Source of the DNA: Macrolepiota albuminosa
Taxonomy: Eukaryota > Basidiomycota > Agaricomycetes > Agaricales > Agaricaceae
Length of the DNA: 64,000 nucleotides
Direction of reading: 5' to 3'
Assembly: GCA_027475525.1 (NCBI GenBank)
Contig: JAMWFC010000037.1
Location: forward strand, 1,540,711 to 1,604,710
Part shown: positions 2,870 to 38,668 of the stretch, in pieces
Layout: the number at the start of each line of letters is the position of its first letter
Numbering within the stretch: position 1 is the first letter of the stretch
Notes under the pieces: model-generated
Told to the model about the DNA's origin: nothing
The model's database searches: none
The model's input: only the letters and a program-made list of their open reading frames with translations
Position numbers and translations under genes: made by a program

Positions 2870-5834
2870 TTATCGTGGGTTTTCGTCAAGGACGGGAGGC
2901 AGAAAAGTACGCAAACGCTTTTCCTTGTGCCGTTCCCTGCGGTCGAGTTCGGCTTGTTTAGCATTGGCATCATCAGGATGGTCCTTGAGATCCTCAATAG
3001 CTTCTTCGATGATGCGACGTATGTAGTAATGAATGTTATAGAATTCTTCTGCACGGTATCTGTAACCAAGCATGAGAGTTTTCCACCATTTGCACACATA
3101 GGGTTTCAACGGATCAAAGTAAGGATGGAAGTGTACGACAATTTCGTCTTCGAATAATTGCCAATTTTGGTGGAAGTGCACCTTTTTCTTCTTTATTTGG
3201 TTTTCACTGCCGTCGAATAGTTTGATAACGATGGCTCGGAGTTGATGGTTACATGATGGGGAATCCTGGTCCAATTCCTCTTGGCGTCGCATATTTAAAC
3301 CGGGGCCCTTTCGGGTTAAGCACAGGTAGACTAGGACCCAAAGAAGAGATTCTACATCGTGAATTGTCTGATGGACGAATGGTGCTCTATTGTACCAAGT
3401 GTGGAGGGAGTATCCAGTGATAACTTCTCCACTCATGAAAGGAAGAGTACCCTTTAAAAGGATCACTACCCATCTTACGTGCTCCAAAAAGAGAAAAAAA
3501 AACTGACTGTGCGCTCTTCACGGCCAATATTACGATGGGTAAAATTGGGCCATTGGAAAGATTGAGTTTTGTCCTTCTACATGGGCTGTGATAAAGTAGA
3601 ATGGTAATTGAAGGGATGCAGGCTTACCACATCAAACCATCCTAGATCATTCATGGATAAAAGCTTTCCTGAGACGTGGTTACTAGACTGGACAACATCT
3701 TCTATGTAGTCGGCAATACTCTGGAATTTGTGCCATTTCAAGGCCGTATCAAGAACATTGTCTTCTGCTTTTCGTCCAAAGACAAGCTTAAAGACTTGCT
3801 GGACAATCCGTCGTTGTTCCTTGACTTCTGATGGAGAAATGCCAACTAGCTTGGACTGTATTTCAACCCTACCACTTGCCTTCTTCGCATGGTCATAATC
3901 TATGATGCGCCCAAAATTCCTGCCTTTTCCTTTGGGATCTTCGAAAATTAAGAGATTTCCGGTGCTGATATCACGGTGGACTATCAGCCTGTTATGAGCA
4001 TACTCGAGTTCTAAGGTAGAGACGTTGAAAGCAAGGAAACATGGAGTGATGCACAAACACACCTCCATTATAGTCATAGAAACAGTATAAAAGCTCCAAT
4101 AAGCAGCAAAACGATTCAATTACTAAACCCATAGGCATGAGAATAGTTGTATGATAACGTTCGACAATAGTTGGAGGATCTGGGACAAGATATACCGACA
4201 CTTCACGCCTGTATAGGCGAAGTTCAGCAGCGTCATCAGTCTCGGCTATCCTGGCCCTTGGAAGTTTTAGAAGGGGTTCGATGGGGCGTTTATAAGGTTG
4301 AGAGTCCAACCCACAGCGACTCAGCTTGACTGTACTGTCCACTTCGCCATCAATCTTGTCATCGTGATAGAGGATAGCATGCTTCATTTCCTCTTCGACC
4401 TGTCCCTCATCTAGAATGTCGCAAATTTGACCTTCAGTTGGGTATAAGTCCCGGTTATCTGAGTCTGGCCGTATGGGCCTCCAGTAGCGCTTGAGCGCAT
4501 ATACCTGACAAAATGTTATCAATAAATGATCTGATAGAAGTCGTGTCCTGTTCTGACCTTCTTCGGCTCTTCTTTTTCATCAAACTCCACAACTTCATAG
4601 ACGACAGTAGCGCGGCTGCAGATTTCAGCCGAACGCAGTGCAGAGATGATGGCCACAGCAATATATTTCTTTACCTCCCCATCTTTTTCAACATCGATGA
4701 CCCAGTGGATGTTATGCCGCCCATTGCCGTCAACACCTCGACAGTTGTGGGCGACCTTATAAGAAGGTTTCACCTTGATCGGATCCTTCGTATGAGGGCT
4801 ATAAATTTGCATTGCTGTGTCCCAGCCAAGTTGTGCAGGCTTCATATGTGAAAACCCAGTTATGATTTGAACAAATTTCTCCCATTCCTACAAATAGTCA
4901 GTGAAAGATACTCATTACAAAGTGATTCCTTACTGTATGGATGTTGATTGGAGTCCTTGTCATCATCACTCCAGATCGATCACACAATACTAAGGTGAGC
5001 TCATCATATAGAAGAACGAAACCTAATACAAAGCGCCGATCCAACTGTTCCCTCAAGACACAACGCATGTAGCCCGAGAGTTGCATTACAGCATTGTACA
5101 GCTCTTTTTCTGATTTATTCCATTTGATTTCGTAAACGATATGGATGGACATCCACCATAATCTATACAGATCATACTAGGCACAAGTCAACAAAGCATC
5201 CACTGATAGAAATAATGAATACACTTACACGAGCTTCTTTCTCGTATTGTGCGGCACCGCTATGCATGCGAGACAGTTTTTTCTCAACACGTTCAACTAT
5301 CTCCTTTTCTAGTCCTTGAATATCAGCGTCAGGTTGAGCCCCTACACCATCAGGACGTCTGAGGGGTGATGTAGGGTCCTCTGATTTTGGAGTATTCCTG
5401 GAGCGATCCACATATGAGATGGATGTTTGAATGCCGCCTGGGAGCATAGTTCCAACAATCTTGTTCAGAATCACGGTCAAAGGCTTGTATATTGCTTTCT
5501 TGTTTACCTTCGATTTCGATTCTTCCGGATAGTCTTTCCACCGAGAGCCAGTGTAGATACCTTCGTCCTCCAACCTTTTAAGGCTCTCGCCCATTGTAGA
5601 AATCTTGGGAATTCTTCTTTCCAAGAATTCCTCGGTCGCGACGGTGAAGAAGGAAGTGTTCTCCATATCTTTCTCAAGGTCTGCTTTAATGTCAGCCATT
5701 AATGTCTTGTCGGATGTTACGTTAGTTGATGTTGCCGGTCTGTGAGGGGCATAGGTTATTGTTGCTAAGGAGAGGTGGCGGGAGCTGAAGGACCCAGAAA
5801 CACAAAGGACACGAGAGAGCCTAGATGAGGACAT
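2870..5834 (-). CDS. FunK1-type fungal protein kinase
   Basis: A six-exon gene with frame kept across every join: 5229-5834, 4934-5176, 4558-4887, 4063-4504, 3628-4010 and 2870-3451, giving about 861 residues, usual for the family. FunK1 kinases are multigene, mushroom-specific serine/threonine kinases of unknown substrates. Seen: the catalytic loop VHRDISTGNLL (HRD) in exon 5, the magnesium-loop equivalent RIIDYDHAKK, and the family stretches QLSGYMRCVLREQLDRRF (exon 2) and GTLPFMSGEV followed by TIHDVESLLWVLVY (exon 6). No in-frame stop is visible, unlike nearly every other gene here. The ATG at 5834 is chosen because it opens MSSSRLSRV, as in relatives; an upstream in-frame ATG at 5969 would add an unlikely hydrophobic extension. 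The last intron (176 nt) is the only long one. Whether it is expressed inside this repeat-rich area cannot be seen. Confidence 0.88.
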
Positions 5835-13769: not shown

Positions 13770-13774
13770 CAATA

Positions 13775-14009
13775 TGTAACGAAGTTACGAAGTTTAGAGA
13801 GCTTAGTGTGCACACACGACACTGAATCAGACCAGACCGGTCTATTGACAATGTAGTATACACGAAAAATAAGCTGCTTTGTAAGCAGCTGGGTAACTAA
13901 TTATATACGAATGTAAATAATATTATATTATAATAAATATAATATAATATTTACTACTATACAGTAAGTAAAGCTATGTGGCCAACGCCACATAGCGGAC
14001 TACGCTACA
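13775..14009 (-). repeat. E1 3' LTR
   Basis: 235 bp, TG...CA, preceded by CAATA. It lacks the 77-bp duplication present in the partner LTR. Confidence 0.9.
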
Positions 14010-14054
14010 CACCCCCCAATCAGACCGAGCTACGGTCTCGAGATAATACGACGG

Positions 14055-17397: not shown

Positions 17398-17634
17398 TTA
17401 AGCGCCGGCACGCTTACTTAATTGATGTGGGCGCTTAATGCCCTTCAACTCCAAATAACGGTCAAGTGCCGCTAGCTTGGAGCAATGGGAGTGTGGCTCC
17501 CATGTTGTGTCCCCCAGGGACCATCGTACCTCAAACTCGAGCGTGTTACGCTCAGTCCACCGGTGCCCAATTATGCACTCGACGAACCATTCGTCATCGT
17601 CTCGAGCCCCAAAATCATAGGGGCCCGGGGTCGC
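17398..17634 (-). CDS. E1 chromodomain, pol C-terminus (separated from integrase by E2)
   Basis: Encodes DEWFVECIIGHRW, then LEFEVRWSLGDTTWEPHS and AALDRYLELKGI, a chromodomain with the aromatic residues (F/W near the start, W in RW, W in TWEP) that bind methylated histone H3 tails in chromoviruses and steer integration to heterochromatin. Joining 31270 to 17634 with TSD TCGC counted once keeps frame: ALFPNRA into TPGPYDFGARDDDEW. So this is the original pol end, displaced 13.6 kb from its integrase. Stop at 17398-17400. Confidence 0.9.
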   Translation of the reverse strand, partial: ATPGPYDFGARDDDEWFVECIIGHRWTERNTLEFEVRWSLGDTTWEPHSHCSKLAALDRYLELKGIKRPHQLSKRAGA

Positions 17635-18677
17635 TGATGACGCCAACTGTGGTTGGGTGCGCTGGACGTATACGCAGTACAACGCCGTCTCCAGCGCCTG
17701 GCGTACGGGTTTGTGAGGAGTCCCGGCAGGGTCCCGGTGTGCTTGAGCAGAGGTGATAGAGCGATGCGCTAGACGATAGCGCCTCGGATGCTACCTAGCA
17801 AGTGGTAAGCGTCGTAGTTTAGGGGAAGTTATAGAGAAAGAAACGAATAGCGCAGCGTAGCATGCCCGTAGGTGGCACCGTAAACGACGAAGACGAGATA
17901 GACGAAGCTAGCGCCGAACTTGGTGGCAAAGTCAGGCAACGCTAGCGCGATTTGAACGCTAAGTGTAACTGGGTGCTCAAGAGGTTACGATTCGTTGTTA
18001 TATACATGGCAAGTAGCTAGTTTTTATACTATGCGCTACATTATTTCCAAAATAAGTCCATTGACGGCGCTACCAATTAGTGCCTCTCTTCGTGACTGTA
18101 GCTAACGGCCACCTGTCAACGGCGACCTGCAGCGCATGGGTGACGGCGACCAACGGCGACTCTAAAACTACTTAGAAGTGGTACGAGTTTGCTCACTTTT
18201 TGATGTAATTTAATTGGCCATGCCATCTCGGGGTATGGTCGGGGAATCCTCGACAGACGCCGTGAGCGCTAATTCCGGCGCTAAACATTGTACCATATTT
18301 TGATAGATTTAAATGTCGGGTCTGCGTGTATCCTGTCTCATCGTCATTGATTCTTTTAGACTTCTGATTGAGGTGCCTCGGTGATTGACAGCGCCAATTG
18401 CTAACTCCTTCCAGTACTGATCGGGGTTTGGTCAGAGTCCCCTCCCGCCGTTATGCTAGCGCTATGAGTCCTGAGTCTTCTTGGTCTTCAAAGTAACTGA
18501 GTGGAGTGCGCTGAGGGGCTGATGCTGGTGATTGAGATGAATGGATAAGTCTTGCCATAGAGCGCCCGTGCTAGGGCTGCTCTGTACCCAAGGCTGGTCG
18601 CTAGAGCCTTTAGTGTGTCAAGTGTTGGTCGGCCTATAATGTCCCTTGATGCGCTCAGTCCGAGTAGAAGCCTATCA
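17635..18677 (-). repeat. E2 3' LTR
   Basis: 1,043 bp, about four transitions from the 5' LTR. It contains TATAAAAA on the minus strand at 18021-18028. Confidence 0.93.
18021..18028 (-). promoter_or_regulatory. LTR TATA box (3' LTR copy)
   Basis: TATAAAAA on the minus strand, conserved in the partner LTR (30613-30620) and, as TATAAAAG, in the diverged solo LTR near 42820, which supports function as the E2 promoter. Confidence 0.6.
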
Positions 18678-18766
18678 TCTCCCCCCAACTGAAAAATTGA
18701 CTGTCCTCAGTCAAACGCCGTCGTTAATTTAACTGCGCTACGGTCCGTATAATGCCGCCGGCGCCT

Positions 18767-18773
18767 TATAAAA
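18767..18773 (+). promoter_or_regulatory. TATA box of E2 antisense gene 1
   Basis: TATAAAA, 51 bp before the ATG at 18824 and about 90 bp outside the 3' LTR, facing opposite to the element's gag-pol. An ATG at 18752 lies upstream of the box and is unlikely to be used. Confidence 0.6.
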
Positions 18774-18823
18774 GTCGTTTTCCGTACTTCACCTTCCCGT
18801 GTTTTCCTTCCCATCTTCCCAGT

Positions 18824-21423
18824 ATGTCCACTTCTTTCGACGCCTCTGCTCTCCGCAATTTCCTGGCTAAGGCCTCCTATTTATTTGATCGCGCTAAGTC
18901 TGTCGGTCCCGCCGATGCGCCACAAACCGTCCCTGGTATTATGCAACTCTATCGGCGCTGGCTTGTGGTCCGCGGCTCCGACAGTTCCTGGGAGCGGGGT
19001 GACGAAGTTCGTGAGTGGTGCGTGGCCCGGTACCGTGAGTATGAGGGTGCCGATTGGTTGCGCCCTTTCGTGGACCTTTTCGTAAGTTTTCTAAGTTTGA
19101 TTTTGGCGTTGTGGCGCTAAGGTTCAGCGCCCATACTAGGCTCCCTCCTTATCTGACGAGATCGACGCGTTGTTGGCTAGCACCGAGGTCAGCGAAGTAA
19201 GTCCTTCCTTCTCCTCCCCCTTTTTTCCACTGTTAATCCTTGAGTAGTCGGTTGCTACGTCTCCCACCGTCGCCAGTCTTCCTACTGCCCCCTCGGCCTC
19301 TACTGTCCCTTCTGTTCCTACCGCCCCTCCTTCTTCGACTTCTGTTCCGCCTTCTTCCGTTCTTGGCAGCCCTTTTCGTGGCGCTACTTCTTCCACTCGC
19401 CCTGCCCCAAGCGCTGCTTCTCCCGTCCGTACTGCCCCTCCCCATTCGGCCATCAAACGTATTGCCGTTTCTCTCGCCCTGCCCCAAGCGCTGCTTCTCC
19501 CGTCCGTACTGCCCCTCCCCATTCGGCCATCAAACGTATTGCCGTTTCTCATAGCGAGCCACGACCCGGCCCAACGCGCCCAACTTCTCACGGTCCTCCG
19601 CGTAATTTCGCCATTGTTATTGAACGAGCGCCTCCTGCTCGTGCTAGTTCTCCTCCCAAACGTACTGTGCGTTCTTTTCCTATCTTCCTTACTCCATTTT
19701 TCTGACTTCTCCCCCTTCCAGATCAATCTCCCTGCTCGTGTTCCCCCTTTGTATGTCGTAAGTGCTTTGCTTGTTGTCGCTAGACTTTAGCGCCTAAATG
19801 TTAATGTCGATAGGCGCCTAACCAGACCATGTTCACCGATGCGGAGCTTCGCGACCTTTTGCGTCTTCGCCGTGATACTACCGTCATTGATACCGGCGTT
19901 CCGGCTGGTGTCCAAGTACTGGGCGGCAAGAAGAAGGTTACCGTTGCGCCCTTGGAGCGTCGCGCGTTTAGGGCAAAGATTGGCGCGGTAAGCACTGTTT
20001 TGCCCCTTTGGAGGTTCATGCCGTCGCTGACTTCTTTCTTAGTGTGACAAGTGTTGGTCTGAGAACGACCCTGAGGGCTGCTGGTTTCCTACCGCGTCTC
20101 TGCCTTGCTATCGGTGCGATGCGTTGAAACGAGGCTGCGCCTTCAACGGGATTCGTACTCGTGAACGTGGTAGGGACGCCATTATGCAAAGGAACTATGA
20201 GCGCGCAGTGTTGGTTCGTAACGCCCAGGACTTCGTGCTGCAGCAACGTGATCTGGCGGCTACTCACCAACCCACGGTAATCAGCGCAGCCAGCCTGGCG
20301 CTGCCGACTACCCAGGATGGTACTACCGTGGCGGCACCTTTTGCTCGCTCTCCTCGTCGTCCCGTTCTTTCGAAACGTAAGCCTGTTGTCACGTCTCCTG
20401 GCAAGAGCCCTGGTAAGCGCCGCGAGCTAGCGCCTGCTACGCCTGTGGTTTTGTCTTCGACCGAGTCTTCTACGGATGAGGGGGAGGGCACCGAGAGGGA
20501 TGCCGAGGGAGAGGATGATGATGAAGCTGAGCCCGTTGTTGATGCCGATGCGCTATTGGCGGTACGCGCTCTCCTGCTTCGCCTTACTCCCCCTATCGCC
20601 GCTAACCCTCGTCAGAGTGGCGCCAGTGGTAACCAGTACGCATTTTCCTAACTTCTTTTTCCTTCGCGTGCTAACTTCTTGACTGATAGGTCCCCCACTC
20701 CCGTTCCCGTCGTCGTGGCTATCCCTGCTGCCAAAGATGTCGTTATGTCTGATGCTGGTGCTACCCCCGCCCCCGAGTCGGTTGCGGCTAGCGACCCTCC
20801 GGTTGCTCTCCCTATCACTCCGTCCCTTACTCCTCCCCACAGCTCCTCTTCTTTTCCTAGTAGTCGCGAGACTTCTGCGGCGCCGGAATCCGAAGGAACC
20901 CTGGTGCCGGAAGGTGAGCGTCGTCGCCGCTGGAGATACTTGCCTCCCTACGGCATCCATCTTTCTTCCACCAGAGCTATGTCCCCCGGCGACGAGCGCC
21001 ATGAGTGGACACCCCGTGTGCCTGTAACTGTCCGGGTACGTCCGTTTTTGTTTGTTCCCCCTTTTCTCCCCTTTTCTAACCTTCCATAAGTTCGATCCCT
21101 TTTGGACTCCCCCTCCTGCCATGCGAGTTTCTGGTGACGCCTTCCCTTGGCTCGGGGACGAGTTCTCCTATCCTGTTACCCCTCTCCGCCCTTCTGCCGA
21201 CCTTCGCCAGCAACTCCGCCATATCGAGGATGCGACCGAAGCCGTTGGTCGCGAACTTGCCAACCTGCGTCCTCGCGTTTCCACCTTAGCTCGCCGCGAG
21301 CGCCTCCTTCTCGAGCTTCATGACGATATTACAGCTGCGCTTGAGTGGCAAGCGAGTAACTCGATCCAGGACGGGGACTTGCTTCCTTTGGGCGATCCCG
21401 CCCTTCCCGAGTATGATCCGTAG
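18824..21423 (+). CDS. E2 antisense gene 1: six-cysteine (Zn2Cys6-like) protein
   Basis: Multi-exon, on the strand opposite to gag-pol. Exons with exact phase-0 joins: 18824-19081, 19140-19196, 19248-19666, 19722-19757, 19814-19987, then 20043 onward; further exons at about 20688-21032 and 21090-21423. Exon 3 has a multiple of three only if one 77-bp duplication copy is ignored. The product begins MSTSFDASALRNFLAKAS; a Pro/Ser/Thr linker follows, then FTDAELRDLLRLRRDTTV. Exon 6 opens with the cluster C-x2-C-x8-C-x8-C-x2-C-x6-C (CDKCW...GCW, PCYRCDALKRGCAF), like the fungal Zn2Cys6 DNA-binding cluster but with x8 where x6 is usual. An acidic stretch follows, and the C-terminus has a coiled-coil-like helix (LRQQLRHIEDATEAVGREL). 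The join near 20640 does not keep frame by my reading. DNA binding is inferred. Confidence 0.7.
19396..19549 (+). repeat. 77-bp tandem duplication 4 of 12
   Basis: Units 19396-19472 and 19473-19549 in exon 3 of antisense gene 1. The exon is 419 nt; 342 without one copy, which is in frame. Confidence 0.92.
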
Positions 21424-21944
21424 TTGCCGACCCTTAGCGCTTTTAAACTTTTATGGACTTAGTCTTTTTGATACAAACTTTGTAGTATGTGATCCTATAA
21501 TAAACGCCTCCCTTGGCTTCAAATCGTCAGTTTGTAAGTAATCAAAAGAAAATAAGTAAAAGGGGAAACGCTCAGTAGATCATCATGGCGCAAAAACCCC
21601 TGTTGCTGGCGCGGCCCAATAGCCATTACCACGCCAGCCTAAGTAGAAAATAGGAACTGTCTGGAAATAAATAAGCGGATCCATGTAAGAAGTAACGTGT
21701 ATAAAGAAATAGAAAACCAGTGATCGCTTTGTGGCTATTCGGTGATGGTGAGCATAAGCGCTAGGTCTAGAATGGCGATTTCCTTTCTGCGCGGTCCAAC
21801 CATGAGTCAAGCGCCTCTCATTGGCTAGTATCTTCGTCAGGGTCCTCGTTCTTTGTGAAACGTCCTCCCACGCTGTCGCCGTTCTAACTCTAGCCGTGTC
21901 CTATAAATTGCATATGCATCAACTGGATCTCATCAGTCTTCGCG
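21424..21944. other. Spacer between antisense genes 1 and 2
   Basis: No open frame of note. It contains an AATAAAC-like sequence just after gene 1 (about 21498) that could serve polyadenylation, and ends with the promoter of gene 2. Confidence 0.4.
21902..21908 (+). promoter_or_regulatory. TATA box of E2 antisense gene 2
   Basis: TATAAAT, 37 bp before the ATG at 21945. Confidence 0.55.
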
Positions 21945-22460
21945 ATGACCAGCCCGACCGGCCTGGTGTGGACTCCCCGCTGTGATCGTGCTCACGTCAT
22001 GATGGACCCTCCAACTTTCCTAGAGCGTGTCACCTCTTTCCTTCACCACTATCCTGCTGGCAGCGTGCCAGAACTGGACGATGGCGCCCTCGAATTAAGT
22101 CGTCGCTGCCGGTTGCTGCGTGCGGCCTGTGAGATCTGGTCGGATAGCAAACCTCTGATGCAGTTTGGTATGGAGAAGGCCTGGAGTCGCATTTTTCAGG
22201 TGCGCTCCTGCCTTTTTCGCCCTCTTCTTTGCTGACAGTCGCTAATTAAAGCAAATTCCTCCCACCTCCACGCGAGAGCGTCTTGAGCTGCTGCTGGAAG
22301 AAAGCCACTATCTGGTCCGTCTGTCCTTACCCCGTTACTCCTTTCTTTTCCTGTCTAACCGCGCCTTCTTCACCAGTCTCCTCGTTCTTCTACCGGTGGT
22401 CGCCTCTTTCGTGGCCCCTCTGACGGAGGGACGCGTCTCCTCCTGTTGCCCGCTCCTTGA
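21945..22460 (+). CDS. E2 antisense gene 2: small unknown protein (133 aa)
   Basis: Three exons keep frame exactly: 21945-22199 (85 codons), 22252-22314 (21 codons) and 22377-22460 (27 codons and stop). The first intron has a CTAAT branch-like site. The core TFLERVTSFLHHYPAGSVPE followed by LSRRCRLLRAACEIWSDS resembles that of antisense gene 3 (ILDRIEHFLAIMPTGGFPHE, then LVRRYRILLDASTEWMID), so the two look like diverged duplicates. No known domain is recognised and there is no signal peptide. TATAAAT lies 37 bp upstream. Confidence 0.65.
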
Positions 22461-22513
22461 TTTGCTTCCACCTCCCATGTCGTTTATGTAAGGTGATCTT
22501 CCCTTCTCCGTAG

Positions 22514-22667
22514 CGCCACAGAACTGACAGATTTTAGATTCTTGATTTCCAATGTCGTCGTATATTAAATGCATCGTTGTTGTCGCCCCCCGCCACAGAA
22601 CTGACAGATTTTAGATTCTTGATTTCCAATGTTGTCGTATATTAAATGCATCGTTGTTGTCGCCCCC
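22514..22667 (+). repeat. 77-bp tandem duplication 5 of 12
   Basis: Units 22514-22590 and 22591-22667, with one C/T difference; they lie in the 3' flank of antisense gene 2. Confidence 0.88.
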
Positions 22668-22778
22668 CCCCCTCGTGATTGTTTCGCCCATGTAAAAGTT
22701 CCTAAGTCGCTGCGACCCTGCAAGTAGCTAGAGATATTTTATGGGCTCTGCCGCCCTTAAGTTTGTTAGTATTTCATC

Positions 22779-23497
22779 ATGCCAGCACCCTCCATACTTC
22801 TCCCAGATCCGGAACTTCCTCACCGCCCCGCGATCTTGGATCGTATTGAACACTTCCTGGCTATTATGCCTACGGGGGGTTTCCCTCATGAAAACGGAAA
22901 TACCATGACCCTGGTGCGCCGATATCGCATCCTGTTGGACGCCTCCACCGAATGGATGATAGACCAGGATGAGTCTCTGGTCACGGTTCGCCTCCTGTTA
23001 GCGCGTATCTTGTTTGTTGCTCATGTGTTCGCAGTCGACTATTACGCCTAGCGCAGCAAGTTTGGCGAGCCTTCTTCGGGAGACTGGCAGTTTGGTTAGT
23101 CAATAGCTCTTTCCTTCTGACCTTGGGTTGCTAATTCCATGCCGTTGCCAAGAGCCTTTCATGGCTTCCCCTTCCGCTCCTGGTTGAGTCCCGTGCCCGT
23201 AGGGCAGTCCTCGACCGCGTGGTCTTTCCTTTCCCGCCCTCGCTTCAGCCCTCCTACGGGGAGTGGGACCTTTCCCCCGAACTCGCTGCCCCTCCTCCAG
23301 GCGCTCCTCCTGCGCCAACTCCTAGCGCTCCAGTACCTTCATCCTGCATTCCTCCCGCCGTACCTCGCAACGCGCCGCCTTCGAGCACTCCGGTGCCTAC
23401 ACCAGGCGCCCCTCTTCCTCCTTCAGGCGGTCCTCCCTCCTTTAGGCGGCCCAGGGAGCGAGTCCGAGGTTCTCGTCGCCGGTCTTCTTCGGCGTAG
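22779..23497 (+). CDS. E2 antisense gene 3: Pro-rich unknown protein (206 aa)
   Basis: Three exons join in frame: 22779-23011, 23052-23094 and 23153-23497, with GT-AG introns. The N-terminal 80 residues (ILDRIEHFLAIMPTGGFPHE, LVRRYRILLDASTEW) parallel antisense gene 2. The C-terminal half is Pro/Ala/Ser-rich (APPPGAPPAPTPSAPVPSS) and ends in a basic tail (RRPRERVRGSRRRSSSA) that could bind nucleic acid or act as a nuclear signal. The stop lies 148 bp from the integrase stop, in tail-to-tail arrangement. Function unknown. The frame-preserving splicing argues against a chance antisense open frame. Confidence 0.65.
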
Positions 23498-23644
23498 CTC
23501 GTAACGTAGTAGCCGTAGTTGATTTTGTGTCCTCGCCTGTACCATAGCTATTTATGCCATCCAATATGCCTTCCGAAAGGGAAACATGACCTAAGTTTAC
23601 TTAACGGGGGCGCTAACACCTAGCGCCTCGTCCTTCGCCTTCAT

Positions 23645-24571
23645 TTACTGTTCTTCGTCGTCGTCAACAGGGGTCTCGTCATCATCCACTAACTCCGTTT
23701 CTTCCAGTTCTCGTAGTTTAGCCGTGTCAATGTCCAGCGCCGACGAAGGTAAGGGAATGTGTTCCCGCGCTAAGTAGGGGATGAGTCGAAACGCCGCTAC
23801 TGGTCGATGCAAAACTGAGCCGTCCAACTCGCAGAGTACATAGGCGCCTCCCCTATTGCGGGAAACCACTATTAGGGGTCCCAGATACCGAGGTCGCATC
23901 TTTTTGTTATGGGTAACTTCGATCTTTGAGTTGCACATTAGTACGAGGGCGCCAGAGGTGAAGTTGTAGTCTCTAATCGTGGCGCTGTGCTCGCTTTCAA
24001 ATCGTAGCGCAGCTTGTCGTCTAGTTTGAAATACTACTTCGTGTAAGCGCTCGAGATCCTCCATGCGTCGCTGTAAGTCTATAGCGCGCCTAGCAATCAT
24101 GTCGGTGGAAGATAGTATCGAATTCGGGGGTGGCTGTAAGTAAGTAGCTTCCACTATGTCGGCCGGGAGGAGTGGATGGGTGCCGGTCGCCGCGTAGTAG
24201 GGTGAACAACCCATCCTTTTTCGTACGGTAACCCTTTCCGACCAGAAGACCGAATAAGTCGCTTCGCTCCAGCGACTTTCGTCACCATCGACCGCCTTAA
24301 ATAGCGCCTGTCGAACGTCAAAATGAGGCCTTTCTACGATTCCGTTGGCGCGCTTGTTGTAACCAGAAACCCGTATGTGTTGAATGTTGTACTTCTTGGC
24401 AAGATAAGTGAGCGCCTTAACTATCGGCGCTCCATTGTCTGTGACGATCTCGTGAAGGGCTCCCCATCTGCAGATAACGTCCTCAAAGAGCCACTTAGCT
24501 ATAGCGTCTGTATTTTCTCGTTGGAGCATACGGAACTCCGGCCAATGTACCAAGGAACACCTTCCAGCCAC
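23645..24571 (-). pseudogene. E2 integrase core and C-terminus
   Basis: Carries the second and third catalytic acids in IVTDNGAPIV and ANGIVERPHFDVRQAL and ends in an acidic tail (VDDDETPVDDDEEQ). The zinc-binding HHCC part and first Asp (IYIDTMHMPKSGRY) lie in the upstream frame (24645-24850). The two are separated by the 77-bp duplication and a one-base frame slip at its edge. Integrase inserts the element DNA copy; E2 leaves 4-bp target duplications. Confidence 0.85.
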
Positions 24572-24644
24572 TTAGCTATAGCGTCTGTATTTTCTCGTTG
24601 GAGCATACGGAACTCCGGCCAATGTACCAAGGAACACCTTCCTG
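24491..24644 (-). repeat. 77-bp tandem duplication 6 of 12
   Basis: Units 24491-24567 and 24568-24644, splitting the integrase frame. Even with one copy ignored, the frame seems one base short at the 24644 edge. Confidence 0.9.
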
Positions 24645-27076
24645 AATGATATACTTGTAGCGCCCTGACTTGGGCATGTGCATGGTGTCGATATATATTT
24701 TTCCAAATAGCGGCGCTGGAGTCGCTACTGTTGGGGGAATAAGAACCTGACGTGTCTGCTGGATTTGACAGAGATGACAAGTGCGAATATACCACGCAAT
24801 ATCGGCGCTAACTTGAGGCCACCAGAAGCGCTCCAAAAGGTTCGCTCTTGTTGCGTAGAGTCCACGGTGTCCCAAGTCATCGTGCATAGCGCGTAGAATT
24901 CTAATTCGATTGTCCGGTTTAATTACTAGCTTGTGGGCGCCATCTCTATTTCGTCGCCAAAGTCGGTTTTCCACTACAAAGAAGGTCGTCGCGTATTGAA
25001 TGAAGGTGGCGTATTCCGTATCCGTAAGGTCTGATGGTCGTCGCAAATCCTGTAGCCACTTCCTAACCTGGTCCACCCGCTGATCTTCTGACTTAGCTTT
25101 GGCGCTTCGAGGTACCGCCGAATATGGCAGGTTCTGACTGTCTTCTCTTAAGGGTCTTGGTTCCTCGACTATCTTTAGATCGTTAGATGGCTTAGCGACG
25201 TTATAGATACTGGCCGTGTAAAAAGTTGATGACGCCTGATATGGTCGGGGCTGGTACGGAACAATAGGGTGAAGCCAATTTGAAACTGGTTGGTCTTCGC
25301 GAAGCGCCGGAATAGGCAGCTGAATGATGTGCATGAAACCATGCAATCGATCGATCCAATCGTCAAATACATCGTTGTCGCTATCGTCTAGCGCTTCATC
25401 TTCCGGTTGTCTGGGTCGCCTAGATAATCCGTCCGGCCCGTGAAATGCACTTCTGACGTGTACTAACTCGAAGTGAAACATTAATATCGCTACTACCCAG
25501 CGGTTCATACTGGCCGACGGTTGAATATCAGGGTTCTGAAGCATTCCTTTGATGTATCGTGCGTCGACCTCGACAATGAGATTTTGTACCCCAATGAGGT
25601 ACATGCGCAGCGCCTGAAACGATCGAAACAAGCCATATAACTCTAGCTTGGGCTGACTGTAGCGCGATTCTCGGTCGTTAAGGGTAATCGATCCGAAACG
25701 ATTGTGGCGCCTGATTTTCCGGTTTGCGCTATCACACTGGCATAAGAAGAAGCCAACGGCGATATATGATGTGTCAACAGCAAGTATAACGGGATCGGCG
25801 GTAGTATAGTCAATGGGTACCAATGGTTTCGCTTCCTGTAGCGCCTTTACTAAGTCCTTCTGGGCATTGATTTGATCAGGTCCGAATTCGAAGGGGACCC
25901 CTGAACGGGTTAGGCAATTAAGGGCGTTTGCGCGATGAGAAAAATGGTGTATGAACATGCGCAGCACCCCTACAGTGCCCAAGAACGTGCGAACTTCCGA
26001 GAGGTTATGACAGACCCCCCATTTCTCCAACAGCGCTAATCGGCTCTTTTCTGGAATCCTGCCTTCTGGCGTGCAAACGTGCCCCAAAATTTTAAACTGC
26101 GGTGCGCAAAGAACGAGCTTGTGCCCTGAAAACATCCCGCCACAATACTTCATGCGCTGAAGTACTCGGTTAACCAGTTGAAAGAATTCCCATAGCGCCA
26201 TGCGAATATTAGGATTTTCCGGGTGAACTTCGGGCTTGCCATCCACCAACCGCCAATCCTTCGGGCCTTTAACTCCTACGTCGTCTATGAAACTGAGCAC
26301 ATGGTGGGGTATTTTGGGCTGTAGGATAAACGTAATATCGTCGTGAAATATCGGTACCGAGTTTGTCCATCCCATAGGAAGTGTGACTAGTCGTAGCGCC
26401 CCAAACGGTGTTTGAAATGTCGTCAAGTCGCGAGAGGAAGGATGGATTAAGCGCTCGTCATAGCCTACGTACAAATCCAGGGTAGCGCCACATATTCGTC
26501 CCGCAAAAGATTCAGCGACGTGATCGGGAAATGGCGGTACCCCTGAATGACGAATGGTGACTTTGTTTAGCGGTTCTAGGCTGTGAACTATACGTAGCTT
26601 CCCGTTTTTCTTTAGTACGCAGAACCACCTCGAGCGGTAGGCCGAGTTAGAAGGCTCGTATACACCTGCCGCTATCTTGGAGCGAATAATTTGGCAGACT
26701 TCGGCTTTGATGCCCGGGGGTATGGGTCGGTTATGCTCAGTCCAGGGTACGTGCGGTATGGTTGGGATGACCACTGGTGGAAAAAAGTCAGTTCTAAGTT
26801 TACTGCGTTCTGAGTCCTCCCATGCAAAAGCCTCATTCTGTTTTTGCATGATGTCGACTAGTACGTTCATTTCCTCCGTCGAGAGGAAGCCGGTATTGTG
26901 GGCGCTAAGAAATAGCGCCTTTCGTTCTTCTGTAAATCGTCCTGTTGGTTCAAAGGGTGGTGGATTCGGATCGAGTTTTGGCAGGGTAGCCAAAGGGTCG
27001 CCTATTATTTTTCTTTCGATGCGAAATTCCTCGGGTACGGCGCTTGCTACCGGTTTTGTTTTAAGCGCTACGGGTT
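24645..27076 (-). CDS. E2 reverse transcriptase, RNase H and integrase zinc finger
   Basis: Reading leftwards: the RT with WFCVLKKNGKLRIVHSLEPLN, a motif-A region ATLDLYVGYDE, LVTLPMGWTNSVPIFHDDI and the active site SFIDDVGVKGP (Asp pair); RNase H with ILAVDTSYIAVGFFLC, KLELYGLFRSFQALRMYL and VEVDARYIKGML; then the integrase zinc finger with CHLCQ and the first catalytic Asp in YIDTMHM. The FIDD active site is typical of this mushroom Gypsy lineage. About 800 codons are open without a stop, notable beside the broken gag. The N-terminal boundary is blurred by the duplication at 27077. Confidence 0.88.
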
Positions 27077-27230
27077 TATATTTCTTCTTGACCTGAACCC
27101 CTTTGCGCTTAGGGGTACTATTGTTAGCAAACGTATTATAAATAGAGTCATGGTATATTTCTTCTTGACCTGAACCCCTTTGCGCTTAGGGGTACTATTG
27201 TTAGCAAACGTATTATAAATAGAGTCATGG
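27077..27230 (-). repeat. 77-bp tandem duplication 7 of 12
   Basis: Units 27077-27153 and 27154-27230, at the protease to reverse-transcriptase transition of E2. Confidence 0.9.
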
Positions 27231-28463
27231 TTCTAGCGAAACCTGATATCAAAGATTCTTTAGAGTCGGGAGTAGAAACGAAATAAGTGTCTGTTGAAAG
27301 GTTTTCAGTAATATCTGACGCAGTGAGGTATAAGTAGGATAACGCGTCACTAGTAAGCGACGAAGAAGAATTCAAGATTTCATGGGCTAAAGGGGTATAG
27401 GATATAAAGTTTACTTGCCCAGTCCGATGGTTATAGTCCAAGATAAGCGCTTCATCTCCATGATCCTCATCACTCATCTCCTCGATGGCGCCGGAAAACA
27501 CTCGCAAGGGTTGTCGCTAACGTAAGGTCGCTTTCTCGGTCCCGGTTTCTGGAATTTCCCCCGTGGAAACGTTGGTACCGTTCTTCTGACGCCTGAGTTA
27601 GGGTCGCTAATAGTTAGCGTCGTTTCGTCTTCAGACGTCGTCTTGACTACTGATCGGGCTAAGACGTCGAAGGGCCTTCCTAATAATAAGTCGTACGCAG
27701 GCGACCTAAGAATGTGTATTTGAAGGTAAAACGTAAGATCGCCAACAGCGCATGGCACGTTACGAGCCATTCCCAAGGATCGATCAATAGTGCCATTAGC
27801 GCTTTGCATATTAAGAATGATGGTCGGGTCGTAAATGATGCCAAGCTCGTTAGCGACGTCGGCAGCCATTGAAATAATCTGTGATCCGCTGTCCACTATA
27901 GATTCTATCTCGCTTTTTCCATCAACTGTCAACATAATCGAGCGAATCGCGTGAGAGTCTTGGGCTACAGTGAGGACGGCGGGATCGTTGCTAGATCTTA
28001 GCGACTTAAGGTAAGTTTCAACCGGGTCAATGGACGTAGCTTCTTTAGGTGGGGCGGCCTCTTCTTTGATTTCCGACGTGACCGTCTTGGTTATGTATGC
28101 GAATCCAGGTAGCGCGTCGTCGCATTCGTCCACCGCCGTTACATTGTTAGCTACGTTCCGTCGAGGGGTTACCGCTGTACGCATCTGATTCCTGACGTCT
28201 GGCGCCACACTGCATAGCTCCCCTACCGACATCGTGACTTGACTTTTCATAATACGATCGAATACTTGCTTAGATTTTTCTATGTCGTAGATTGGTGCCG
28301 TTGGTCGGTAGCCTCCTGCTGGCTTGTCTGGCGCTCCAAAGTTTCAATTGATAGGCGGAGCGTAGTTACCGGCAAGTCCTGAATACGGGTGTAGTGGCGG
28401 TTCCGTGCTAGCTGGCGCTTTGGCCGTATCAGGTGTGTCGTCGTTGATACTGGAATTCGAAGG
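27148..28463 (-). pseudogene. E2 aspartic protease and linker
   Basis: The protease core SIVDSGSQIISMAADVANELGI gives the DSG active site, followed by YDLLLGRPFDVLARSVV (the LLGRP flap-end motif). The upstream frame has a TGA at 28344-28346 in PIN-stop-NFGAPDKPAGG, where Arg (CGA) is likely. The protease frame (to 27474) overlaps by 34 nt the next frame (27148-27507, RVFSGAIEEMSDEDHGDEA), so either a frameshift is used or an indel is present. Retroviral-type proteases cleave the Gag-Pol polyprotein. Confidence 0.8.
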
Positions 28464-28617
28464 CTTTGCAGGTGCTGGATCGGTCGTAGCGCCTGAAGGT
28501 CTATAGTCTTTCAACGGTTGCTTGCTCTTTTTAATCTCGACTTTGCAGGTGCTGGATCAGTCGTAGCGCCTGAAGGTCTATAGTCTTTCAACGGTTGCTT
28601 GCTCTTTTTAATCTCGA
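28464..28617 (-). repeat. 77-bp tandem duplication 8 of 12
   Basis: Units 28464-28540 and 28541-28617, with one G/A difference, at the gag-protease border of E2. Confidence 0.88.
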
Positions 28618-30147
28618 CCCATCGAAAACCTGATTCTTTAGCGACTTTAGCTCCCTTTCCAACGTCTCAATCCTCTCCTCTCGTGACAACGTCGGTCGCT
28701 CGCTAACAGCATTAAGCTGGAGTACTTCATGGATTAGCGCCTGTTGTGGAGTTGTTTCTGCCTCCGCTGCGGCCGTACTATTGAGATTGCCCGTCGCTAA
28801 GTTCCCAGGGTTACGTCGATGCCATTCATCAATTCGCCCCTGGAAGGTTCGGTGCTCAGGATATAGAGGGATGTTAGCGCCGGAGGGTAGGACTATTTTC
28901 CCGTCGGCGCCTCGGCGTGCTCTTCCTTGGCGCAGGTATTGTTCGAGGATAGCGCAGCGTCCGCGAGTCATCGTATGTCCTGCCTCACCACAGAAGTGAC
29001 AAGGGCCGGATTGCATATTACCTCATGGCGCATTAAGGCTAGTCAAGATTAACGTTTCCAATTTGCTCATAACGTTTGCGACAGCCGTGTTGACTGCGTT
29101 TTCCAGGTCCTCCTTCTTGACAAAACCTCCCTGATTGTTAGTTGCGCTAGGTGCGGGCGCCGCAACAGGTGGCGCCTTTCCTCCGTTATCAGTGCTAGAA
29201 GGTCGCTGGAAGGGGATGCCAGTATCCGTGCCTTTCAGTATCCATTTACCTGCTTCAAAGACGTCTTCTATATTGTAGGGTTCCTCAGGATGGTGGTCGG
29301 ACTTAAGAATTTCTAAGCGACGAGCTATACGAGTCCAAAGTGATGTGGGAATGCCTTGTTGAAACAAGCGCCGTTCCTCGTTCCTGTAGAGTTTGCCATT
29401 CTGCACTAGCCATCTTGCAATTCGCTGGAAGTCTCGATAATAAGTAGATAGCGTGCCTAGTGTATAAATGCCCGTTGCGAAGGTATCCTGTACCAGTTTC
29501 TGGATTTCAAGGACGGTATAGCGCATGGATTCCTCAGTGCCAGGGTACAGTTTAATGATCGCCTTTTTCCATTCCTCGTAGGTAAACGCCCTTGGCACCG
29601 CCTCTCATGTTAATCCTTGAAACTCATCCAGTCCCGTCCAGGATTCCGCGGTGTCGTAGGAAACGTATCTGGCGGCGTATTCTTTCATTTGTGTGTTGTC
29701 GGTGACTCGGCAGTCGCGTAATAAATATTCCAATTCTTGGAAATACTGTGTTAGCTCGCGAGGTTTCGTCTCGTCCCATTTTGGCGACGAGAAGTGGTTT
29801 CTTGGCGGCATACGCGGTGTGTTTGCCTGCTCCATACTAGCTGGCGTCGATGTCGTGGTGGGAATAGTAGTGTTAGTGGTAGTTTCGCTTGGCGTAGTTG
29901 TAGTCGGTACTGGCTCGGGTAATTCTGAGTCGCTAGGTTCTGGCGATAATGACCTAGACAGCTCTTCCAAAGGAGTAAGCAGTGTATGGTTTTCACCTGC
30001 TAAGTATTTGAACGGTCGGGAAAATGGAAAGAAGCTTTCAGCCAAGCTATCTGGAGCGGCTTCAAGCTCCTGATCTAAAGTCTGCCTTGGTAGCGCGCCT
30101 GGTAAGTGTGGTGACTCAGTTAAGGTTTGTTCAAACGCGCTCTCCAA
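28618..30147 (-). pseudogene. E2 gag (capsid and zinc knuckle)
   Basis: One phase broken by TGA at 29605-29607 (GLT-stop-EAVPRAF) and 29023-29025 (NAP-stop-GNMQSG), both consistent with CGA to TGA. The first part has a disordered Thr-rich stretch and the capsid-like PPRNHFSSPKWDETKPRELT, YFQELEYLLRDCRV and AARYVSYDTAESWTGL; the middle has FTYEEWKKAIIKLYPGTE and LSTYYRDFQRIARWLV; the end has the zinc knuckle CHFCGEAGHTMTRGRC (C-x2-C-x4-H-x5-C) and a short coiled coil. Gag builds the virus-like particle and packages RNA. The layout is that of a gag family common in mushroom Gypsy elements. Confidence 0.82.
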
Positions 30148-30226
30148 TAGGAGGCGGCGCTGTCGCTGGGCTCGAGTTTCCGGCGGAATTCTGCCTCAAT
30201 AGAACCCCTCGCGGTGGGCTCCAAAA

Positions 30227-31269
30227 TGATGACGCCAACTGTGGTTGGGTGCGCTGGACGTATACGCAGTACAACGCCGTCTCCAGCGCCTGGCATACGG
30301 GTTTGTGAGGAGTCCCAGCAGGGTCCCGGTGTGCTCGAGCAGAGGTGATAGAGCGATGCGCTAGACGATAGCGCCTCGGATGCTACCTAGCAAGTGGTAA
30401 GCGTCGTAGTTTAGGGGAAGTTATAGAGAAAGAAACGAATAGCGCAGCGTAGCATGCCCGTAGGTGGCACCGTAAACGACGAAGACGAGATAGACGAAGC
30501 TAGCGCCGAACTTGGTGGCAAAGTCAGGCAACGCTAGCGCGATTTGAACGCTAAGTGTAACTGGGTGCTCAAGAGGTTACGATTCGTTGTTATATACATG
30601 GCAAGTAGCTAGTTTTTATACTATGCGCTACATTATTTCCAAAATAAGTCCATTGACGGCGCTACCAATTAGTGCCTCTCTTCGTGACTGTAGCTAACGG
30701 CCACCTGTCAACGGCGACCTGCAGCGCATGGGTGACGGCGACCAACGGCGACTCTAAAACTACTTAGAAGTGGTACGAGTTTGCTCACTTTTTGATGTAA
30801 TTTAATTGGCCATGCCATCTCGGGGTATGGTCGGGGAATCCTCGACAGACGCCGTGAGCGCTAATTCCGGCGCTAAACATTGTACCATATTTTGATAGAT
30901 TTAAATGTCGGGTCTGCGTGTATCCTGTCTCATCGTCATTGATTCTTTTAGACTTCTGATTGAGGTGCCTCGGTGATTGACAGCGCCAATTGCTAACTCC
31001 TTCCAGTACTGATCGGGGTTTGGTCAGAGTCCCCTCCCGCCGTTATGCTAGCGCTATGAGTCCTGAGTCTTCTTGGTCTTCAAAGTAACTGAGTGGAGTG
31101 CGCTGAGGGGCTGATGCTGGTGATTGAGATGAATGGATAAGTCTTGCCATAGAGCGCCCGCGCTAGGGCTGCTCTGTACCCAAGGCTGGTCGCTAGAGCC
31201 TTTAGTGTGTCAAGTGTTGGTCGGCCTATAATGTCCCTTGATGCGCTCAGTCCGAGTAGAAGCCTATCA
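30227..31269 (-). repeat. E2 5' LTR
   Basis: 1,043 bp. It begins TGATGACGCC at 30227 and is followed inward (minus strand) by the tRNA-complementary primer site. The TATA box is at 30613-30620. Confidence 0.93.
30613..30620 (-). promoter_or_regulatory. LTR TATA box (5' LTR copy)
   Basis: TATAAAAA on the minus strand; it should drive leftward transcription of E2. Confidence 0.6.
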
Positions 31270-33421
31270 TCGCCCTGTTAGGGAACAGCGCATCGTCAGA
31301 CGCGCTATAAGGTCGCAACAGCGATACATGAAACTTAGGAATGATGCGTCGTTCCTGTAATGCCAGAGGCAGCTCCAACACGTAGTTGGAGGTACTTGGC
31401 TCCGCGTCTAGGACGCGGTACGGGCCTACCCATTTCGGGCAGAGTTTACTCGCCCGTCCCTTCGGGAGCCTCAGATTACGCGTTGATAAGTATACCAACG
31501 CTCCTACAGCTATTGGCGGGTCTGTTCGCCTACGGTGATTGGCGTTCTTCGCCTGAAAGACTCGCGCCTCTATGATGGCGTCATGCGCCGCCGTGATGTT
31601 CTCCAGGGCCTGCCTGGCGAACTCGACAACTCCACGGTGAGCTACCGTATCAGCACGAACTTCGTGCAGCATGGAGGGCAAGTACCCTCCGTTGAGTTCA
31701 AAGGGCGCATACCCTGTGGTCTCCGAGATACTCGCGTTAATCACGAACTCAGTGAGTGGACACCAGTCCACCCAGTCCCGTTGGTCAGGGCGAACAACTG
31801 CCCTCAAAATCTGACCTATACTGCGGTTAACCCGCTCTGTCTGCCCATCCGTCTGCGGATGGAAGGACGTCGACATGAGGAGTCGCGCTCCTAGCAGTTT
31901 GTGGAGTTCTCTCCACCATTGAGACGTGAACTTTGAGTCACGATCGCTCACAATGGTGCTAGGCAGCCCATGCAGCCTAACGATCTCCCTCAGGTAGATC
32001 CACGACAGCTCCTTAGCCGTCAGCGTAGTTCGCACCGGTATGAGGTGCACCATGCTTGTCATACGACATATGACTACCCAGAGGTAATCGAACCCTCTGG
32101 ACTCGGGAAAGGGACCTACGAAGTCCATTCCAATTGAGTCCCAGGGTTTCACCGGCACGGGTAGCTGGTGTAGCTTCCCGAGAGGGGATCCAGGGGGCAA
32201 CTTTGCCCTCTGACACGCTGCGCAGGACGCGCAAAACTTAGTCACTTCTTGGGCCATACGTGGCCACCAATACCATCGCCGGATGTAGCCCAATGTCCGG
32301 GCGGCACCAAAGTGCCCCACCAGGGCATGGGCCTGGTCCAAGACCCACGTAACAATGGTACGCGTACGGGGGAGGCATACCACTGCCACCCCTTGACAGT
32401 TCTCCGTCGTGATGAGTCCACCAGGCTCATGCCTGAACCAAGGATGGTCGTCAGGATTGGCGATTATCTCGGCGAAGAGAGGATCATCGCCATAGTCCTG
32501 CACCACCTCCTGCCGGAAGTCGTCATCGACCAGGCTAGGAGGCTGGGATGAAGGCAATTCGCCTTCGAGCATCTCCGCAAGCGTAACGGGTACATCGTGG
32601 CGCTCGTGCTCCCTAGTGGATGCTGGGTCCACGGTTTCATGCTCCTTGAGCAACTGGGCGGCTACGTCCCGTTCTTCATGCTGCTCTCTGAGGCGAGTGC
32701 TTCGCCTCCGTTCATCGTCACGCATAGCGCGTACTTCCAGGACATGCTCCCTGAGCTCCTGGTATCGGTGGAGAGGTAAATCCTCTCCATCAGGGTCTAT
32801 GCGGCAGTCTGCCTGCACATACTCATGAGGCTCGTGAGCCTCCCCGACTACATCACTCTCAAAGTAGCGTGACAAGCAGTCTGCCACTTTGTTGAGTTCA
32901 CCTTTAACATAGGTGATGTCGAACTGGTATCTCGACATGTAGTCTATCCACCGTCGCTGACGCGGCGACAAGTTCACCTGAGTTTTAAAGAACTCAAGGG
33001 CCTTGTGGTCCGTTATGATGTGGATGGGGTATCCCATCAGCTTATCCTCCCACTTGAGGAGAGCCTCGAGTATGGCAAGAGTCTCCAACTCGTGCACCGC
33101 ATAGTTTTGCTGGGCCGTCGTGAACTTCTTCGACATGAACCCTGCTGGGCGGCACGTCTGCCAGCTGCTTCCCTGGCCGTACATGGCCCCGACGCCTGTC
33201 TTGGACGCGTCGCAAATGAGCCATATAGGCTCGTCCCGTCTAGGGTCGATTGGTCGAATCACCGGAGTCTTCGTACAGATCCGTTTGACCATCTCGAAGC
33301 ACCGCTGGTGCAACGGCCTCCAATTGAACGGTGACCCGTTCTGCGTCATGGCCATAAGTGGCCCAGTATAGGCTGTGACATCGGGCAAGAAGCTCGATAT
33401 GTAGTTGACAAGGCCAACGAA
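31270..33421 (-). pseudogene. E1 RT thumb, RNase H and integrase
   Basis: After the TGA at 33422 the same phase continues FVGLVNYISSFLPDVTAY, then RNase H (PIWLICDASKTGVGAMYG, HELETLAILEALLKWED, IITDHKALEFF, KVADCLSRY), the integrase zinc finger (VGHFGAARTLGYIRRWYWWP with CASCAACQ) and the catalytic core with Asp in SIGMDFVGPFP, Asp in IVSDRDSKFTSQWW and Glu in GQTERVNRSIGQ. It continues to IIPKFHVSLLRPYS and is interrupted by E2 at ALFPNRA, whose continuation is the chromodomain at 17634. All catalytic residues are present, so the damage is limited to stops and the insertion. Confidence 0.92.
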
Positions 33422-38220: not shown

Positions 38221-38351
38221 CGATCCCCTGTTTGAAATTTGCACGGTGTGGCTGTGCAAGAAGCTCAAGAAGCTGATAGAGTTCTGTCAACGAACTCAAC
38301 GACTGACGTCGGATGCTAGGCAATAGATCCTAGCTGGCGGATTCAAAAAAA

Positions 38352-38663
38352 TGTAACGAAGTTACGAAGTTTAGAGAGCTTAGTGTGCACACACGACACT
38401 GAATCAGACCAGACCGGTCTATTGACAATGTAGTATACACGAAAAATAAGCTGCTTTGTAAGCAGCTGGGTAACTAATTATATACGAATGTAAATAATAT
38501 TATATTATAATAAATATAATATAATATTTACTACTATACAGTAAGTAAAGCTATGTGGCCAACGCCACATAGCGGACTACGCTACACAAAATATAATATA
38601 ATATTTACTACTATACAGTAAGTAAAGCTATGTGGCCAACGCCACATAGCGGACTACGCTACA
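38352..38663 (-). repeat. E1 5' LTR (with extra 77 bp)
   Basis: Matches 13775-14009 but carries an extra 77-bp copy, 312 bp against 235 bp. It is followed by TSD CAATA. Confidence 0.92.
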
Positions 38664-38665
38664 CA
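38512..38665 (-). repeat. 77-bp tandem duplication 9 of 12
   Basis: Units 38512-38588 and 38589-38665. The unit ends two bases outside the LTR, inside the target duplication, and is absent from the other LTR, so the copying is unrelated to LTR boundaries. Confidence 0.92.
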
Positions 38666-38668
38666 ATA

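Follow-up and report, generated by a model that had tools for sequence, protein, structure and literature searches.

We analysed a window of 64,000 nucleotides, the whole stretch presented here, from the mushroom Macrolepiota albuminosa (contig JAMWFC010000037.1). The window contains E2, a Ty3/Gypsy retrotransposon with long terminal repeats (LTRs) that lies on the minus strand. Three multi-exon genes of the plus strand fill the interval between the minus-strand integrase of E2 (stop side near 23645) and its 3' LTR (Table 1), an arrangement that the first-pass annotation of this DNA had proposed and that our exon models bear out. The Ty3/Gypsy assignment of E2 is based on its paired LTRs with TG..CA ends and a target-site duplication, together with Pfam matches which, read along the minus strand, follow the Gypsy order of Asp_protease_2/gag-asp_proteas, RT_RNaseH and Integrase_H2C2. 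The reverse transcriptase (RT) core and the integrase catalytic core fell below the Pfam cut-off in the window copy, in which 77-nt duplications (positions 24489 and 27077) interrupt the pol frames. The 3' LTR matches 30227-31275 with 99.5% identity over 1049 nt (ungapped BLAST, before trimming), and the two LTRs differ at 4 of 1043 positions. E2 is a young element.

Gene models of the antisense module

Gene 1 comprises eight exons. The six exons that had been joined in frame in the first-pass annotation were recovered, and their number has to be raised to eight by virtue of an exon-6 donor (AACCA/GTACGC, phase 2), after which exons 7 and 8 continue in frame to the stop at 21423, both in the window and in L016, another copy of the element. 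In L016, which is free of the 77-bp duplication, the eight exons yield a single 712-aa frame with seven GT-AG introns, and the splice sites of this copy are also present in the window. The window copy is frameshifted by a 77-nt duplication in exon 3 (19391/19468), which is kept in the coordinates of Table 1; the intact frame of L016 agrees with the earlier proposal that one 77-bp copy has to be removed. Genes 2 and 3 likewise join in frame with GT-AG introns, as had been described, and all 11 introns of the module are of the GT-AG type, with lengths of 49–62 nt. The accompanying claim that these introns carry branch-like sites stands for 8 of the 11, in which a CTNAY motif was found. A TATA box does precede two of the three genes: the region of the gene 1 TATAAA, TTATAAAA, is present in 8 of 8 copies compared, and the gene 2 TATAAA is retained in 6 of 7, the deviating copy being L034. 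A scan for TATAAA ahead of gene 3 detected none.

Tandem duplications of 30–200 bp, with a cut-off of at least 95% identity over the whole period, have a period of exactly 77 in 12 of 12 cases in the window. In loci L009-L037 of the same genome (228 kb) there are 34 more 77-bp duplications, with any other listed period occurring at most twice, and a looser repeat at 46870 of the window (64 nt, 68-nt spacing) falls under the cut-off. On account of this uniform period in both the window and the loci we rejected a biological repeat. The duplications are probably an assembly artefact, most likely left by uncollapsed contig overlaps at k=77; a literature search on such a 77-bp artefact recovered nothing relevant. 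They will disrupt many gene models of this assembly.

Table 1. Coordinates of E2, its antisense module and associated features in the window
Feature	Position	Strand	Remarks
E2	17635-31269	-	Ty3/Gypsy LTR retrotransposon
Target-site duplication TCGC (4 bp)	17631-17634 and 31270-31273		flanks of E2
3' LTR of E2	17635-18677	-	1043 bp after trimming to TG...CA ends
Putative polypurine tract of minus strand and inverted repeat TTGACTG-TCCT-CAGTCAA	18678-18714		+ strand reads TCTCCCCCC
TATAAA before gene 1	18767-18772	+	starts 57 nt ahead of gene 1 ATG
Gene 1	18824-21423	+	8 exons, 7 introns of 51-58 nt
Gene 1 exons 1-4	18824-19081, 19140-19196, 19248-19666, 19722-19757	+	
Gene 1 exons 5-8	19814-19987, 20043-20635, 20690-21035, 21091-21423	+	
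Six-cysteine cluster C-X2-C-X8-C-X8-C-X2-C-X6-C	20043-20150	+	gene 1 exon 6
TATAAA before gene 2	21902-21907	+	starts 43 nt ahead of gene 2 ATG
Gene 2	21945-22460	+	133 aa from 3 exons; introns 52 and 62 nt long
Gene 2 exons	21945-22199, 22252-22314, 22377-22460	+	
Gene 3	22779-23497	+	203 aa from 3 exons; introns 49 and 58 nt long
Gene 3 exons	22779-22985, 23035-23094, 23153-23497	+	
pol of E2	23645-28250	-	protease, RNase H, integrase zinc-binding (Pfam matches)
5' LTR of E2	30227-31269	-	BLAST partner of 3' LTR
77-bp duplications	9930, 12410, 13592, 19391, 22514, 24489, 27077, 28464, 38512, 45423, 56460, 58671		

Coding constraint and distribution across the genome

All relatives were drawn from this one genome (an assembly of 100 Mb in 129 contigs), and the main comparison pair consisted of L016 and the diverged copy L032, whose intron 2 contains a local duplication (322 nt aligned). 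At non-CpG sites of gene 1 this pair differs at 45/501, 27/579 and 154/508 of the first, second and third codon positions respectively (9.0%, 4.7% and 30.3%), and at 94/268 (35.1%) of the intron positions. Over the gene 1 exons, 252 of the 351 differences fall at annotated third positions. Of 6561 phase assignments, no more than 3 reach such a count, and reading gene 1 as one unspliced frame gives no third-position excess (123/210/138). Because the changes concentrate at third positions and in introns, the spliced frames can be taken as real and selected. Chance frames obtained by free fitting of introns were rejected on the basis of this phase pattern. Env-like open reading frames (ORFs) in the sense direction were also rejected, since selection fits the plus-strand spliced frame in those exons whose size permits a judgement; for gene 1, exons 2 and 4, with 4/0/5 and 3/0/2 changes, are singly too short for one. 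The same codon-position pattern was observed in genes 2 and 3.

The ratio of nonsynonymous to synonymous change (dN/dS, Nei-Gojobori method), which the first-pass annotation had suggested be measured on the copies, is 0.094, 0.186 and 0.235 for genes 1, 2 and 3 between L016 and L032. For gene 1 it amounts to 0.044, 0.074 and 0.34 when L016 is compared with L028, L024 and L029, respectively. In genes 2 and 3 dS exceeds 1 and is close to saturation, and the values of 0.18–0.20 (gene 2) and 0.36–0.38 (gene 3) against L028/L029 are unreliable, with dS >1.6. The window and L016 are separated by too few changes for their ratios to be interpreted (0.66 from 6 changes in gene 2, 0.33 from 21 changes in gene 3). 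Across 13 aligned copies, 89 of 91 gene 1 introns are bounded by GT..AG; of the two exceptions, one has a GC donor (L031), the other has lost its acceptor (L033), and both belong to decayed copies. Gene 1 retains whole codons and no internal stop in 9 of the 13, a biased fraction in that the near copies of the set (L015-L019, L024) were hand-picked from plus-oriented loci. We consider it almost certain that the antisense genes form a selected coding module, which, to judge from its sequence, would very probably be expressed through splicing.

In the gene 1 copies of L031, L033 and L034, first-position changes relative to L016 amount to 18–24% at CpG versus 10–15% elsewhere, and the first positions of the intact L032 gene 1 have no CpG enrichment. 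This pattern suggests methylation-linked decay in this genome.

To place the module relative to integrase, we scored a co-occurrence wherever an integrase match had gene 1 at a distance of up to 9 kb, or gene 3 at up to 4 kb, in antisense orientation and on the expected side. The match lists hold the 150 best scored matches, the best 61 of 2477 candidates and the best 34 of 575, and copy counts are lower bounds. Integrase places number 128, derived from 129 rows, two of which were fragments of a single copy and were counted once, and at least 110 of these places are accompanied by module genes. Sorted by integrase identity, co-occurrence among the matches listed is seen at 28/28 places of 98–100%, 68/72 of 90–96% and 14/28 of 87–88%. 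No opposite-strand module match lies on the wrong side within 9 kb of an integrase among the matches listed, where same-strand matches number 3 for gene 1 of lineage I, 4 for gene 1 of lineage II (see below) and 3 for gene 3. Further, blastn recovered the order LTR, gene 1, gene 2, gene 3, integrase in 21 of 29 loci (L009-L037), including all 19 near copies L009-L027; these had been chosen by module match, and the order test therefore concerns the neighbours. In L028-L030 gene 3 was detected by tblastn only, and blastn of the stretch taken shows no integrase in L031-L033. A nested DNA transposon, or a single capture, was rejected in view of the constant order and geometry at many integrase places. 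Codon-position selection, splice-site conservation and co-occurrence with integrase thus support the central proposal of the first-pass annotation, namely a retrotransposon that carries its own antisense, intron-bearing module, and the observation is strongly supported as real. We describe the E2 family as a large, recently active Ty3/Gypsy family with an antisense accessory module in the interval between pol and the 3' LTR.

Lineages, gene 1 product and cis features

Elements with 87–88% integrase identity constitute a second lineage (lineage II), of which three copies were examined (L035, L037 and L038). The first-pass annotation had allowed that relatives might lack the region or fail to conserve its frames; in these three copies genes 2 and 3 were not detected, yet gene 1 is kept. 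L035, the sole lineage II copy modelled, has a complete gene 1 frame of six exons and five introns of 48–56 nt. It lacks introns 6 and 7 of the other lineage, a difference that would represent intron gain or loss within an antisense gene of a retroelement. Gene 1 of the L035 type is 40–57% identical to that of L016 across matched stretches, and over the C-terminal part the L038 product shares 57% identity with the protein of L035 and 32% with that of L016. By eye, the gene 1 N-termini of L035, L037 and L038 are nearly alike, unlike this diverged C-terminal part, as if gene 1 itself were mosaic. Being kept in both lineages seen, gene 1 appears to be the core of the module, with genes 2 and 3 a putative add-on of one lineage. 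Beside the lineage II element of L035, on the plus strand, we also observed an RT-like ORF (L035:21-1661) followed by a tyrosine-recombinase-like ORF (1822-3003), a pair looking, by eye only, like a DIRS-type element.

The N-terminus of gene 3 is homologous to gene 2, with 47 aligned columns (hhalign E 1.2e-6, probability 90.8%), a similarity reached by none of 1000 shuffles; comparisons of gene 1 with genes 2 and 3 did not establish a relationship. When L016 was compared with L028/L029 in 300-bp bins, identity was 90–100% in the LTR, 92–99% in gene 1, 82–83% in the bin between genes 1 and 2, 49–72% in genes 2-3 and 85–94% in the integrase. Genes 2 and 3 thus behave as a strongly diverged, exchanged cassette, and the exchange would be explained if reverse transcription switched templates between RNAs packaged together. 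In the gene 3-integrase interval of L028 there is also an E2-type LTR in reversed orientation (L028:1595-2640, 97.7% identity), which is apparently a nested insertion.

The gene 1 product contains a cluster of six cysteines, every one of which is conserved in all 8 sequences aligned from the two lineages and, by eye, in L038 too. In the Zn2Cys6 binuclear cluster regulators of fungi, the six cysteines are divided between two halves that each contain CX2C, a basic stretch follows, and the family spacing is X6. The gene 1 cluster resembles them in its six cysteines, CX2C halves and basic stretch, and differs in having X8 in place of X6. The domain encoded by exon 1 is predicted to form four helices (AlphaFold, pLDDT 85.7, pTM 0.76), for which structural comparison with MIT, VPS35-like and other helical folds yielded no clear relative, and the product also has basic and acidic stretches. 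The cysteine cluster suggests nucleic-acid binding, and the gene 1 product would most likely be a nuclear DNA- or RNA-binding regulator. That it regulates the element itself is a tentative proposal, to which we give somewhat less than even weight.

Upstream of the gene 1 promoter and beside the polypurine tract lies the core of the inverted repeat, TTGACTGTCCTCAGTCA, a 17-mer that is exact in 28 of 30 loci (L009-L038) and has one mismatch in each of L031 and L036; in the window it has 1 match versus 0.04 expected. The block of polypurine tract and inverted repeat is nearly invariant though the lineages differ on both sides of it. The repeat may take part in plus-strand priming, fold into an RNA hairpin or be bound by the gene 1 product. 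Outside the LTR ends, all 21 outer flanks found (L010-L030, L036) have NCGN as their adjoining 4 bp, a count in which 2 of the 21 are matches 77 bp apart in L021 and from which two AAAA-ending matches were set aside as inner LTR ends; the TCGC of the window agrees. Given these flanks, the E2 family appears to insert at CpG-centred 4-bp sites with a strict choice of target. CG dinucleotides make up 4.1% across the window and 1.9% outside 13700-43300.

As regards the surroundings, a 241-bp sequence repeated directly at 13771-14011 and 38348-38588 brackets E2, which is therefore probably nested in an older element. A TGGAGCCCACCGCGAGG stretch, a candidate tRNA-type primer binding site, was seen by eye 3 nt inside the 5' LTR. 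An inverted LTR-like copy with ~74% identity to the E2 LTR is located at 42141-43211, near plus-strand ORFs at 38630-42219, and could be a diverged relative or a solo LTR.

Known systems and the proposed role of the module

In plant Gypsy elements, antisense ORFs between pol and the 3' LTR (aORF-3R) are known from maize Grande (gene23), rice RIRE2, Silene Retand (TRP28) and Phaseolus PvRetro13, and for Grande a promoter of its own ahead of gene23 and a nuclear product have been reported (PMC7264820). E2 is like these elements in the position of its module, its antisense orientation and its presence in most copies (at least 110/128), and purifying selection was found as well (dN/dS 0.09, 0.19 and 0.24 for genes 1–3, L016-L032). 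It is unlike them in that the spliced proteins of genes 1–3 have no Pfam match at E up to 1, Transposase_28 (PF04195) included, and in possessing three genes with up to eight exons; the consulted portions of PMC7264820 and PMC11963269 contain no word beginning with 'intron'. Among fungi, Boty/BcGypsy1 of Botrytis cinerea has one extra antisense gene, brtn (Zhao et al. 2011, via PMC7264820 and PMC8365987). Compared by description only, it shares with E2 the combination of a fungal Gypsy element and an antisense gene, one gene being cited for Boty against three in E2. In Didymium, a nuclear group I intron carries in antisense a homing endonuclease gene that contains a 47-nt spliceosomal intron and whose expression has been shown (PMC9548176); this too is a protein gene of a mobile element that runs opposite to the element's own RNA and has spliceosomal splicing, although the class and function of the element are different and there is a single intron. 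Among retroviruses, HTLV-1 carries an antisense regulator, HBZ, whose product is nuclear (PMC11963269). The antisense promoter of HTLV sits within the 3' LTR (PMC7264820), whereas the TATA box of E2 is ~90 bp inside the element.

The earlier description of this system as little-described is partly justified: it would hold for the multi-exon, multi-gene set and not for antisense accessory ORFs in this position as such, which are known in plants and in the fungal Boty (PMC7264820). At the level of titles and the beginnings of abstracts, the open-licence papers listed describe no set of antisense genes with several exons in a Gypsy element of fungi, and the word 'antisense' does not occur in the consulted portion of the review 'LTR Retrotransposons in Fungi' (PMC3248453). 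What would be new to specialists is the multi-gene, multi-exon form, the lineage structure and the cassette exchange.

We propose that host RNA polymerase II would transcribe the module from internal promoters that lie next to the 3' LTR and that the spliceosome would take out its short introns. As the genomic RNA is the opposite strand, established biology would have these introns survive replication. The encoded proteins would benefit the element, and the gene 1 product perhaps acts at the conserved inverted repeat that adjoins the polypurine tract. Given that selection has kept the antisense genes intact, they probably help the element. As a whole we regard this reading as probable, albeit with moderate confidence; that the gene 1 product acts at the inverted repeat seems unlikely when taken as a separate claim.

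Several observations weigh against this reading. Gene 1 is broken in 4 of the 13 aligned copies (L030, L031, L033 and L034) and is out of frame in the window as assembled, and the boundaries of intron 2 in the L035 model are uncertain (phase 2 there, phase 0 in L016). No module part was found at 18 of the 128 integrase places among the matches listed; L038, which adjoins one of these 18 and is the sole one inspected, does carry gene 1, so that some of the misses are unlisted copies. Pfam searches returned no family for the spliced proteins of genes 1–3 at E up to 1, no match for the exon 6 frame of L035, and none for the cysteine region of all 8 sequences at E up to 10, so the gene 1 product, with Zn_clus (PF00172) unmatched, is not filed under that family. 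A PDB sequence search gave no match, and the model of the cysteine region is poor (pLDDT 53.4); because of these results, the argument for nucleic-acid binding comes down to the cysteine spacing. The inverted repeat may serve only in plus-strand priming or as an RNA hairpin, and the promoters and splicing are predictions from sequence.

Among the alternatives, the antisense genes could aid nuclear import or integration targeting, as has been proposed for plant aORFs. The nuclear protein of Grande gene 23 and the predicted DNA binding of Retand TRP28 (PMC7264820, PMC11963269) lend themselves to this explanation, and the CpG-centred sites in all 21 outer flanks imply that something directs insertion; target choice is normally set by integrase, however, and homology to plant aORF proteins was not found at the Pfam level. 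We hold this possible but on the unlikely side. A little more doubtful still is a counter-defence function, in which the fast-evolving proteins of genes 2 and 3, and perhaps that of gene 1, would block host silencing of the element rather than regulate it. It would accord with genes 2-3 being the most diverged part of the element (49–72% per 300-bp bin, L016 versus L028/L029), with a gene 3 dN/dS reaching 0.38, and with the enrichment of CpG changes in decayed copies, on which the host may thus act.

An extension of our proposal would have a regulatory unit of intron-bearing antisense genes, placed on the strand that never serves as RNA in the replication cycle and expressed from integrated nuclear copies only, with gene 1 as a DNA-binding six-cysteine regulator that recognises the inverted repeat and couples replication, transcription and copy number, and with genes 2-3 as an exchangeable, fast-diverging cassette that sets specificity between co-resident subfamilies; as a conjunction we rate it improbable. 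Less credence is due to the idea that the antisense transcripts are themselves functional, pairing with the genomic RNA and tuning copy number through small RNAs or interference, with the proteins secondary. Antisense RNA control has been discussed for plant elements (PMC7264820), and the orientation of the genes implies transcription toward the integrase, but strong constraint on amino acids with free third positions and introns is not expected from base pairing alone. Finally, a gene-model artefact, chance frames, a host gene or a DNA transposon nested in one Gypsy copy might be entertained from the window, which holds one copy with a duplication-broken frame and short introns that can be fitted freely, but the same placement at 110 or more integrase places and in two lineages, and phases matched by 3 of 6561 assignments, leave practically no room for it.

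In the E2-family module, the introns fit capture or birth at the DNA level, or later intron gain. A 2020 review called for examining possible antisense and spliced transcripts of such elements (PMC7264820). The E2 family makes this question testable, as it is of high copy number, apparently young and furnished with unambiguous splice junctions. In addition, its copies and two lineages provide natural variation, gene 1 alone versus genes 1–3, under measurable selection.

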